NCBI RefSeq assembly: GCF_000380185.1
Contig: NZ_KB904746.1
Location: 124,001-188,000 of the forward strand
DNA length: 64,000 nucleotides
Direction of reading: 5' to 3'
Source of the DNA: Thiofilum flexile DSM 14609
Lineage (GTDB): Bacteria > Pseudomonadota > Gammaproteobacteria > Thiotrichales > Thiotrichaceae
In this document: positions 8,098-48,257 of the stretch, piece after piece
Layout: every line of letters begins with the position of its first letter
Position numbering within the stretch: position 1 is the first letter of the stretch
Position numbers and translations under genes: made by a program
Notes under the pieces: model-generated
Databases searched by the model: none
Told to the model about the DNA's origin: nothing
Seen by the model: the letters and a program-made list of their open reading frames with translations, nothing else

Positions 8098-9738
8098 TTA
8101 TACTAAAGGCAAATTACGTCGCCAACCTGAAGTCATGGGATAGCGCCAATCTTTACCAAAAGCTCGAACCGTAATCCGCACTCCGGGCGAGGCTTGGCGA
8201 CGTTTATACTCATTCAATAACACTAAATTGACCACACGTCGAACAGTTTCGCGCTCAAACCCTGCGGCAACAATCGCCTCTAATGGCTCATTTAGCTCCA
8301 TAAAGCGGCGTAAAATTTCATCTAATACATCATACGGCGGTAAAGAATCCTGATCTACCTGTCCGGGTGCTAATTCCGCAGAAGGGGGACGGGTAATCAC
8401 CCGTTCGGGAATAATCGGTGTCGTGCCTAATGAATTGCGGTATTGCGCTAAACGATACACGAGGGTTTTATATACATCCTTTAAGGGGGAAAACGCCCCT
8501 GCCATATCGCCATATAGTGTGGCATACCCGACTGCTGTCTCGCTTTTATTACTAGTGGCTAATAATAAACTGCCGAATTTATTCGACATCGCCATTAACA
8601 ATACCCCACGAATCCGCGCTTGTAGATTTTCCTCGGTCACATCCGCTTTTTTACCGGCAAACACAGGGGCAAGTGTGGCTTCAAAGGCTTTGAAAGTGTC
8701 TTCAATGGGTAAATTATGATATTCCACCCCCATGATTTGCGCTTGCTTAGCCGCATCTTCTTGACTCATAGCGGCGGTATAGCGAAAAGGCATCATAATG
8801 GCGGTCACATGTTCAGCCCCTAAGGCATCGGCGGCAATGGCGAGAGTTAATGCCGAATCAATCCCACCCGATAATCCTAATAAAACCTTTTTAAAGCCAT
8901 TTTTACGCACATAATCCTGCACGCCCAGCACCAGAGCCTGATAAACCTGCTCCTCTACCGTATAAGGAAAGGGAGCCTCAGGTAAATCGGTGCGGGTAAA
9001 CTCCCAATCAATGACCTCAAAATGGGGCTTGAGAATGGGCGCTTGATAAATCGTTTTGCCGCTAGGATCGGACAGCATAGAGGCACCATCAAATACCAGC
9101 TCATCTTGTCCGCCAACTAAATTGACATAGGCAAAGGGTAATTGAGTACGCTTAGCATGATTGATAAATAACTGCCGCCGCTCAAATTGCTTGTCATAAC
9201 GAAAAGGTGAGGCATTTAGGCTTAAAATCACCTCAGCACCAGCTTGTTTTGCTTTATCAACAGGCTCATCGTGCCAAATATCTTCACAAATCAAAATACC
9301 CGCTTTAACACCGTCTATATCAATGACACAGGTCTCATCACCTTCAATAAACCAGCGCTTTTCATCAAAGACATGGTAATTAGGCAGTTTTTGCTTAAAG
9401 TATTCGTGGACAACCTCCCCCCCCTTTAACACACAGGCGGCATTCCGAATCTTGCCCTCACGCATTAAGGGTACACCTATAATCACCCAAAGCTCCGGCG
9501 CGATTTGTGCCAAAGCATGTACACTTTGCTCCATTTGCTGCATAAAATCGGGGCGCAACACTAAATCATCCTGTGCATAGCCTGCGAGGACTAATTCGGG
9601 TAACAGGAGTACTTGTGCTTGGGCGGCTTGGGCTTGCTGAATGGCTTCAGTGACGAGGGCGACATTGCCCTTAACATCGGCTACACAGACATTGAGCTGA
9701 GCAAGCGCAATACGTAGTTTAGGATTATTATTTTGCAC
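8098..9738 (-). CDS. nadE: Glutamine-dependent NAD+ synthetase
   Basis: 546 residues, the two-domain glutamine-dependent form. The N-terminal nitrilase-type glutaminase has its Glu in LLPELVLAGYAQDD, its Lys in FKQKLPNYHVFDE and its Cys in AGILICEDIWHDE. The C-terminal N-type ATP pyrophosphatase has LLGLSGGIDSALTL. It amidates nicotinic acid adenine dinucleotide to NAD+. It leads the nadE-glnB-tmcA group. All catalytic positions appear intact. Confidence 0.96.
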   Translation of the reverse strand: MQNNNPKLRIALAQLNVCVADVKGNVALVTEAIQQAQAAQAQVLLLPELVLAGYAQDDLVLRPDFMQQMEQSVHALAQIAPELWVIIGVPLMREGKIRNAACVLKGGEVVHEYFKQKLPNYHVFDEKRWFIEGDETCVIDIDGVKAGILICEDIWHDEPVDKAKQAGAEVILSLNASPFRYDKQFERRQLFINHAKRTQLPFAYVNLVGGQDELVFDGASMLSDPSGKTIYQAPILKPHFEVIDWEFTRTDLPEAPFPYTVEEQVYQALVLGVQDYVRKNGFKKVLLGLSGGIDSALTLAIAADALGAEHVTAIMMPFRYTAAMSQEDAAKQAQIMGVEYHNLPIEDTFKAFEATLAPVFAGKKADVTEENLQARIRGVLLMAMSNKFGSLLLATSNKSETAVGYATLYGDMAGAFSPLKDVYKTLVYRLAQYRNSLGTTPIIPERVITRPPSAELAPGQVDQDSLPPYDVLDEILRRFMELNEPLEAIVAAGFERETVRRVVNLVLLNEYKRRQASPGVRITVRAFGKDWRYPMTSGWRRNLPLV

Positions 9739-46911: not shown

Positions 46912-47112
46912 ATGTTAGTACTCAGCGAGATATTATTACGCTCAGGTGATGAAATTCTGACCTTTGCCGTATTAAAACAAACGATTCAGGCCATGGCTAT
47001 AGCAACAGGTCAATTACACTTTCAAATTGATATAGAACCACCAGCCTATCACGATCGTCCAGAGGATTGGTATGAACAATTAGAACAAGCTTTTATGGAG
47101 GCAGGGCGCTAA
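46912..47112 (+). CDS. Small protein preceding cas6, unknown
   Basis: 66 residues, acidic, with a hydrophobic N-terminal half (SEILLRSGDEILTFAVLKQ) and YHDRPEDWYEQLEQAF near the end. It has AGGAGGT 8 bases before its ATG and is separated from cas6 by only 2 bases, so the two are co-translated. No family was recognised, and no domain is visible. Confidence 0.65.
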   Translation: MLVLSEILLRSGDEILTFAVLKQTIQAMAIATGQLHFQIDIEPPAYHDRPEDWYEQLEQAFMEAGR

Positions 47113-47114
47113 TA

Positions 47115-47798
47115 ATGTTTTGGCAAGAAGAAGATACAAAACCCCAACCGCATACGGTGTCTGATGAAGTTGTTGATCTAGGGTTTACCATGCAGTGTAA
47201 ACAGCTCCCTATTGATCATGCTTGGGCATTACAAACCGCGTTACTAACCATATTACCTTGGCTTGCCGAGGAGCCTCTAGCTCGTATTCACTCGATTCAT
47301 GTAGCCGAGAGTAGTAATGGCTGGATGCGCCCTGATCACCATCAGGAACAAGTCCTTATTCCCTCACATCGTACGAAACTCTATTTGCGCCTACCCAACA
47401 CGCGCCTCGCACAAGCCCAGCAACTAACCGGACAGACCCTTCTGTTAGACTCTTATACCCTCACCCTAGGGGCAGCCAAGGTGCGGCACTTACAGCATCA
47501 AGCGGTCGTCTTTGCGCGTTATATTGCTTGTTTACCGAATGAAACAGAGGAGCAATTGCTACAACGGATGGCAGATGAGATTCAACAACTTACGGGGGTT
47601 AACATAAAAAAAATGCTCTGCGGTAAATCCCATTATCTATACCACCCTCAACACCCGCTGCTCACGCGGCAATTAATGCTCGCCGACCTAGATCACGCTA
47701 CCTCAATTAAATTACAGCAATATGGCCTAGGCACAGAGCGCCTCATGGGCTGTGGGATCCTCCTGCCGCATAAAGGTATTCAAGCTCAGAATAGCTAA
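47115..47798 (+). CDS. cas6: Cas6 / Cmx6-type CRISPR RNA endoribonuclease-like protein, orphan
   Basis: 227 residues that follow the Cas6/Cmx6 (TIGR02807, MYXAN-type) pattern from end to end: VVDLGFTMQCKQLPIDHAWA near residue 20, RTKLYLRLPNTR near 90, TLTLGAAKVRHLQHQAVVFA near 115-135, and the C-terminal glycine-rich RAMP loop YGLGTERLMGCGILLPHK. Cas6 cleaves precursor crRNA within the repeat. No CRISPR array and no other cas gene is found in the window; the only partner is the 66-residue gene before it. A domesticated RNA-binding role or a trans-acting role for a remote array is possible. Family assignment is by pattern only. Confidence 0.8.
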   Translation: MFWQEEDTKPQPHTVSDEVVDLGFTMQCKQLPIDHAWALQTALLTILPWLAEEPLARIHSIHVAESSNGWMRPDHHQEQVLIPSHRTKLYLRLPNTRLAQAQQLTGQTLLLDSYTLTLGAAKVRHLQHQAVVFARYIACLPNETEEQLLQRMADEIQQLTGVNIKKMLCGKSHYLYHPQHPLLTRQLMLADLDHATSIKLQQYGLGTERLMGCGILLPHKGIQAQNS

Positions 47799-47903: not shown

Positions 47904-48098
47904 ATGAGCACACGCAAACAAGAATTGATTCAAGAAATGCTAGCTATGCAGTCTAAATTCATTGCTTACGAACACTCAGGTGAATTTAATGCTGAAGACT
48001 ATTATGTAGGTGAGTGGCAAACCTATCGAGAACGCTATACCCAATTAGCCGCTGAAGTACGTGAGCTTGCTTCACAAGAAGCGAATTTCTGGAAATAA
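47904..48098 (+). CDS. Small helical protein, unknown
   Basis: 64 residues, largely alpha-helical and charged (RKQELIQEMLAMQSKFIAYEH, YRERYTQLAAEVRELASQEA), likely a helical hairpin. It starts 105 bases after cas6 on the same strand. A conserved-looking YEHSGEFNAEDYY lies mid-protein. No function is recognised. A palindromic element follows its stop. Confidence 0.6.
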   Translation: MSTRKQELIQEMLAMQSKFIAYEHSGEFNAEDYYVGEWQTYRERYTQLAAEVRELASQEANFWK

Positions 48099-48126: not shown

Positions 48127-48238
48127 AGCAAGCATAGGCGGGTATTTCTGGAGCAGTCTTGGCGGCAGGGATGCCGCCTTGTAGCGTACAGGGAGGTATT
48201 CACAGCGGCTGCGGAAGAAATACCCGCCTACGCTTGCT
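48127..48238 (+). repeat. Dispersed palindromic element, copy 2
   Basis: Arms 48127-48149 and 48216-48238 are 23 bases each and pair with one mismatch. The inner part GGGTATTTCTGGAGCAGTCT, the hairpin GGCGGCA-GGGA-TGCCGCC, CTTGTAGCGTACA and GTATTCACAGCG are shared with copy 1 at 3503-3608, but the outer arms here are GCATAGGC-like instead of AAAGTAATT. The inner GCAGTC now faces GGCTGC, a G-T wobble instead of the A-T pair of copy 1. It occupies the gap between convergent genes. Confidence 0.85.
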
Positions 48239-48257
48239 CAAGGGCGACACCACCGTT

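Follow-up and report, generated by a model that had tools for sequence, protein, structure and literature searches.

A Cas6-family gene as a companion of the reverse dsr locus in Gammaproteobacteria

Here we analysed a 64,000-nt stretch of the genome of Thiofilum flexile DSM 14609 (assembly GCF_000380185.1, contig NZ_KB904746.1, positions 124,001 to 188,000 of the forward strand; hereafter the window, whose positions serve as coordinates), which holds a gene for a 227-residue homologue of Cas6 (47115..47798, + strand), the endoribonuclease associated with clustered regularly interspaced short palindromic repeats (CRISPR). It is preceded by a gene for a 66-residue protein of a family without a name, P66 (46912..47112, + strand). 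This Cas6-family gene is a standard companion of the dsr genes and lies away from CRISPR, which suggests that sulfur metabolism has recruited an RNA-cutting protein of the CRISPR type. The explanation that we favour, with a probability of about 0.58, is that the protein is a CRISPR-independent Cas6-family member of the reverse-Dsr locus that binds or cuts RNA for dsr expression, with P66 as its cofactor or regulator.

Occurrence and linkage with dsr

The distribution of the Cas6-like gene gives good support to its membership of the sulfur-oxidation locus. The family, PF09559, was found in 92 of 276 genomes that made up a sample of the class (Gammaproteobacteria), as a single gene in each (split into two pieces in one genome), its main pieces scoring at least 106 bits and genomes of 1.0-1.4 Mb being included; dsrA, encoding the reverse dissimilatory sulfite reductase of sulfur oxidation, was found in 91 of the 276. 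Both genes were present in 88 genomes, only the Cas6 gene in 4, only dsrA in 3 and neither in 181 (Fisher test, odds ratio 1327, p = 6e-63, with genomes as non-independent samples, the pattern nonetheless spanning many families). Where both lay on one contig, which was the case in 66 genomes, they were at most 5 kb apart and divergently transcribed in 65, with a median gap of 1.7 kb. By its co-occurrence with dsrA and its physical linkage to dsrAB, the family is a component of the reverse-dsr locus.

Six of the seven discordant genomes can be put down to contig ends. Two of the genomes with dsrA only have contigs that stop where the cluster would lie, the third carries P66 and a tauD-like gene at a contig edge, and in three of the four with Cas6 only the contig breaks off close to a tauD-like gene, in the direction in which dsrA is expected. 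Among 57 relatives the gene was carried by 36; the family of T. flexile was represented by 36 genomes, of which 31 had the gene. Four genomes of this family without Cas6 also lack dsrA, and a fragmented one with a dsrB-like piece forms an exception.

The gene neighbourhood was read in the best 80 of 564 relatives confirmed in a scan of a genome collection, with flanks of up to 6 kb (the named loci). In these, dsrA lies divergently upstream in 49 of the 58 loci that have at least 4.5 kb of upstream sequence, the usual order being dsrQ (the tauD-like gene), P66, Cas6, a dsrC paralogue without cysteine and P64, opposite dsrABEFHCMK. Distant members of 29-34% identity likewise adjoin dsrA. All 80 are gammaproteobacterial and include Thiothrix, Leucothrix, Cocleimonas, Halochromatium, Thiocystis, Thiohalocapsa, Thiosymbion, Thiogranum and others, genera which we take to be sulfur oxidisers; a phylum-wide draw visibly covered this class only, both in its matches and in the genomes listed. 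Vertical inheritance of the gene is the best reading.

The original prediction had regarded the gene as an orphan without CRISPR context. The lack of CRISPR linkage stands: no array was found across the 64-kb window, none of its open reading frames of at least 150 residues read as a cas gene on inspection, and no cas match occurred in the flanks of the 80 named loci, so that a complete cas locus linked in relatives, named beforehand as an outcome that would speak against an orphan, did not appear; a CRISPR array was present in one of the 80. The gene is, on the other hand, no one-off, but a family-wide companion of dsr. This context had escaped notice because in T. flexile itself the gene is separated from dsr: another contig (C35, locus L187) carries dsrA with the dsr genes that follow it, and there the tauD-like dsrQ still stands divergently beside dsrA, and the P66-Cas6-P64 piece, which is on C1, has been relocated.

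Family, fold and conserved residues

The arrangement described from the letters, a 66-residue gene followed after 2 bases by a full-length Cas6 with a G-rich loop, was confirmed in the list of open reading frames (46912-47112 and 47115-47798). The protein scored 101.2 bits against the TIGR02807 hidden Markov model (cut-off 98.85) and 179.5 bits against PF09559 (cut-off 26.7, E 9.2e-53), which places it in the Cas6 family, and the G-rich loop is present at its C-terminal end. An AlphaFold model built with 51 homologues reached a predicted local distance difference test score (pLDDT) of 89 and a predicted template modelling score of 0.85, and its top PDB matches in Foldseek and VIA-align were Cas6 chains, the best being 8fcj_B, a type I-B Cas6 of a CRISPR-associated transposon (CAST), with Z 24.5 and 2.0 A over 198 residues. 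As modelled, the protein has the Cas6 fold, i.e. the tandem ferredoxin-like architecture of repeat-associated mysterious proteins, with the C-terminal G-rich loop.

A histidine at the start of helix 1, His35 in the motif LPxDHA (codon 47217..47219, + strand), is kept in 88 of 90 aligned dsr-linked proteins and in all 6 homologues linked to CRISPR, and judging from its position it is probably catalytic. Fold and histidine conservation together make it likely that the dsr-linked protein still cuts RNA.

Other features set the dsr-linked proteins apart. The insert motif HxxHxAESxNGWxRP (codons 59-73, 47289..47333, + strand) is a signature of the dsr clade, H59 and G69 being present in 87 proteins each and W70 in 86, out of 90; the cyanobacterial Cmx6 proteins linked to CRISPR have gaps from W70 to P73. 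Near the C-terminus (codons 203-220, 47721..47774, + strand), the G-rich loop GLGxxxxxGCG is common to the dsr-linked protein and CRISPR Cas6, including G206, G212 and G214, and is followed by a PHK motif specific to the dsr clade, whose K220 occurs in 89 of the 90 dsr-linked proteins and in none of the 6 that are linked to CRISPR. Clade markers comprise the region around N68-G69-W70, E145, K166, G170 and K220. In a maximum-likelihood tree, whose long branches were flagged, 60 dsr-linked rows were split with support of 100/98 from the sampled CRISPR-linked Cmx6 (6 rows) and from one more orphan. By alignment and tree, the dsr-linked proteins form a single group apart from the sampled CRISPR-linked Cmx6.

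Candidate RNA and competing explanations

Under the explanation that we favour, the Cas6-like protein would bind and cut a specific RNA tied to dsr gene expression, with P66 possibly acting as its cofactor or regulator. Our best guess for this RNA is the dsr transcript itself. In the most likely form of the mechanism, structured sites of the long dsr mRNA, such as a hairpin between dsrC and dsrM, would be cleaved or capped, which might free the soluble products (DsrABEFHC) from their coupling to the downstream genes of the membrane complex. As dsr lies on another contig in T. flexile, P66-Cas6-P64 could serve dsr only in trans, and we propose that it would do so.

The dsrC-dsrM spacer is the most structured spacer of dsr, with a mean z of -3.7, control spacers having -0.8 (p = 1.5e-12; z-scores from mononucleotide shuffles). 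In 12 Thiotrichaceae loci, its second hairpin has changes on both sides in 11 of 18 pairs, a value that 0 of 500 shuffles reached and that slid controls failed to reproduce. The covarying hairpin is a candidate substrate of the dsr-linked Cas6. Tandem hairpins are conserved between the two genes in Thiotrichaceae (for example L042 15818-15910 and L187 about 9340-9430), T. flexile itself retaining the two-hairpin layout with a different sequence, and Rfam gave no match at the gathering threshold in six dsr or Cas6 regions. A universal role of this hairpin as substrate was rejected because some Cas6 carriers lack it. The three genomes with dsrA and without Cas6 were also considered as a natural control for the hairpin, and were rejected because their contigs end on the Cas6 side.

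Several points weigh against the proposed action on dsr mRNA. The hairpin is absent or trivial in four Cas6 carriers (L039, L174, L177 and L181), intercistronic hairpins often merely stabilise mRNA, and no natural genome with dsr and without Cas6 was found that could serve as a control. Furthermore, His35 is replaced in two of the proteins (L094 and L177), and the DsrC-family and tauD-like neighbours would be just as compatible with a function in sulfur relay or in the modification of RNA. In the full scenario, gammaproteobacterial sulfur oxidisers would early on have exapted a crRNA-processing (CRISPR RNA-processing) enzyme as a dedicated endoribonuclease that, together with a small partner, processes polycistronic dsr mRNA (e.g. 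at the dsrC-dsrM hairpin) and so regulates energy metabolism; we offer it as a tentative one, with the odds against it.

The strongest competitor, which we consider rather unlikely, is a non-catalytic scaffold, the Cas6 fold serving as a platform for RNA or for proteins (the DsrC-family protein, P66) in sulfur relay, in chemistry resembling tRNA thiolation or in the control of dsr transcription. DsrEFH is homologous to TusBCD, as is DsrC to TusE, and the neighbour of Cas6 is a DsrC/TusE-family protein that lacks the C-terminal cysteine and ends in RKGGY; the two His35 replacements would also fit. However, retention of His35 in nearly all proteins would be unusual if catalysis were dispensable, and the Cys-less paralogue is missing from T. 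flexile and from several sister loci that retain P66-Cas6.

A further idea, put forward with the original prediction, was that the protein processes a distant array, as an ordinary CRISPR Cas6 working in trans. Family searches (including Cas1) and array detection in selected regions of the T. flexile genome did reveal CRISPR loci on other contigs, which could not be seen from the window. C46 ends in a type I-C locus, C13 carries a Cmr type III-B operon that has a 14-repeat array (CRISPR repeat GTTTGAGTATCGCCC...ATTAAGAC) but lacks a cas6, and further type III loci were seen as well. A Cas6-reverse transcriptase protein lies beside genes for repeat-associated mysterious proteins and a short repeat array on C2 (L211 8591-10078), and a PF10040 Cas6 adjoins CARF proteins on C27. 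CRISPR in this genome thus has other Cas6 proteins; moreover, PF09559 tracks dsrA and not cas1, being present without cas1 in at least nine relatives and absent from several with cas1, and it sits in no cas cluster across the 80 named loci. We therefore hold processing of distant arrays to be very improbable. Least probable of all is an antiviral or other defence role that hitch-hikes with dsr, for instance as a guard against dsr-carrying phages: phages of sulfur oxidisers do carry dsr genes and PADLOC annotates the protein as Cas6 family, but searches of 2.9 million viral contigs and of 50,697 phage records found no homologue, and the gene is single-copy and near-universal with dsr, unlike patchy defence genes.

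The other possibility raised at the outset, a domesticated RNA-binding protein acting with a small partner, is supported by the class-wide conservation of the P66-Cas6 pair without CRISPR.

Cluster neighbours and known systems

In the window, the cluster ends, as it usually does, with P64, a 64-residue gene of a family without a name (47904..48098, + strand), and dusA adjoins P66-Cas6-P64. Neither P66 nor P64 has a Pfam or NCBIfam match over cut-off; we consider both real genes because homologues adjoin the Cas6 gene in 71 and 30, respectively, of the 80 named loci, P66 immediately or shortly upstream. The gene order that the original prediction proposed to look for in relatives, P66, Cas6 and P64, therefore recurs for P66 and in part for P64, but a DsrC paralogue often stands between the latter two. 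A tauD-like gene (PF02668) was found in 47 of the 80 and a DsrC-family gene (PF04358) in 67 by tblastn, the match being the dsrC of the dsr operon itself in a few; DsrC-like neighbours that were read out have a C-terminus in RKGGY without cysteine. In T. flexile no Cys-less paralogue was found, the two DsrC-family matches being the dsrC of the operon and a 32% match on C46.

P66 has invariant residues at M1, S5, F18, L21, D40, P43, P50, W53 and F61 (alignment of 42), and its AlphaFold model is helical (pLDDT 89), with no PDB match below E 2 in a fold search. P64 is 65-84% identical in most relatives of the same family, Cas6 itself about 50%. In addition, a gene of about 235 residues without Pfam match lies between P66 and Cas6 in 28 of the 80 loci, many of them Chromatiales (L063 734-1441), and a PKHD-type 2-oxoglutarate dioxygenase, presumably YbiX-like, is encoded on the opposite strand near the cluster end in 31 (L039, L062 and the L080s among them).

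Directly past P64, the window carries an imperfect palindrome of about 104 bp (48139-48242; RNA fold -70 kcal/mol, z -8.7), of which about 40 near-identical copies occur genome-wide (40 of 114 candidates scored). This sequence may be an element resembling miniature inverted-repeat transposable elements or repetitive extragenic palindromes, and may have helped the P66-Cas6-P64 piece to relocate.

The family name, type I-MYXAN CRISPR-associated Cas6/Cmx6, stands on hundreds of genomes and is misleading in Gammaproteobacteria, where the gene marks sulfur oxidation and not immunity; such genes should cease to count as evidence of CRISPR. If our explanation is true, a CRISPR processing nuclease has been recruited to core energy metabolism, and the dsr field gains an unstudied, nearly universal component with an RNA-level role that can be tested in A. 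vinosum or Thiothrix.

We found no description of a Cas6-dsr link in the openly licensed literature searched with Cas6 and dsr/DsrC terms, PF09559 and TIGR02807. The P66-Cas6 cluster starts with a gene already known as the divergent neighbour of dsr, the tauD-like dsrQ (Lenk et al. 2012, as cited in PMC7596348); PMC7596348 mentions neither Cas6 nor CRISPR. In the genome of the Solemya velum symbiont (PMC4287430), Cys-less DsrC homologues were noted outside the dsr operon, which resemble those next to Cas6, although that paper draws no link to Cas6.

Plasmids yielded two cyanobacterial CRISPR loci only, at 25% identity. On plasmid pGMOR1 of Gloeobacter morelensis (L216 2977-3768), a Cas6/Cmx6 homologue lies near PAPS-reductase-family and cupin genes, with no cas neighbours within the stretch shown, and may represent a second case in which the family is used without CRISPR.

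Among characterised systems, type I-MYXAN Cas6/Cmx6 (e.g. of Synechocystis PCC 6714 plasmid pSYLB) belongs to the same PF09559/TIGR02807 family as the dsr-linked protein and shares with it the DH motif, Arg92, Arg135, Gln201 and the GxG...GCG loop. Its genes, however, sit with cas3, cmx8, cas7, cas5, cas1 and cas2, whereas neither the window nor the 80 named loci hold the linked set of cmx8, cas7, cas5, cas3, adaptation genes and array; type I-MYXAN Cmx6 also has neither the GNGW insert nor the PHK motif, and falls on a separate branch from the dsr-linked clade. The closest solved relative is the type I-B CAST Cas6 (PDB 8fcj; profile E 2.6e-17, identity 22%), which has Asn at the position of His35 and functions within the Cascade complex.
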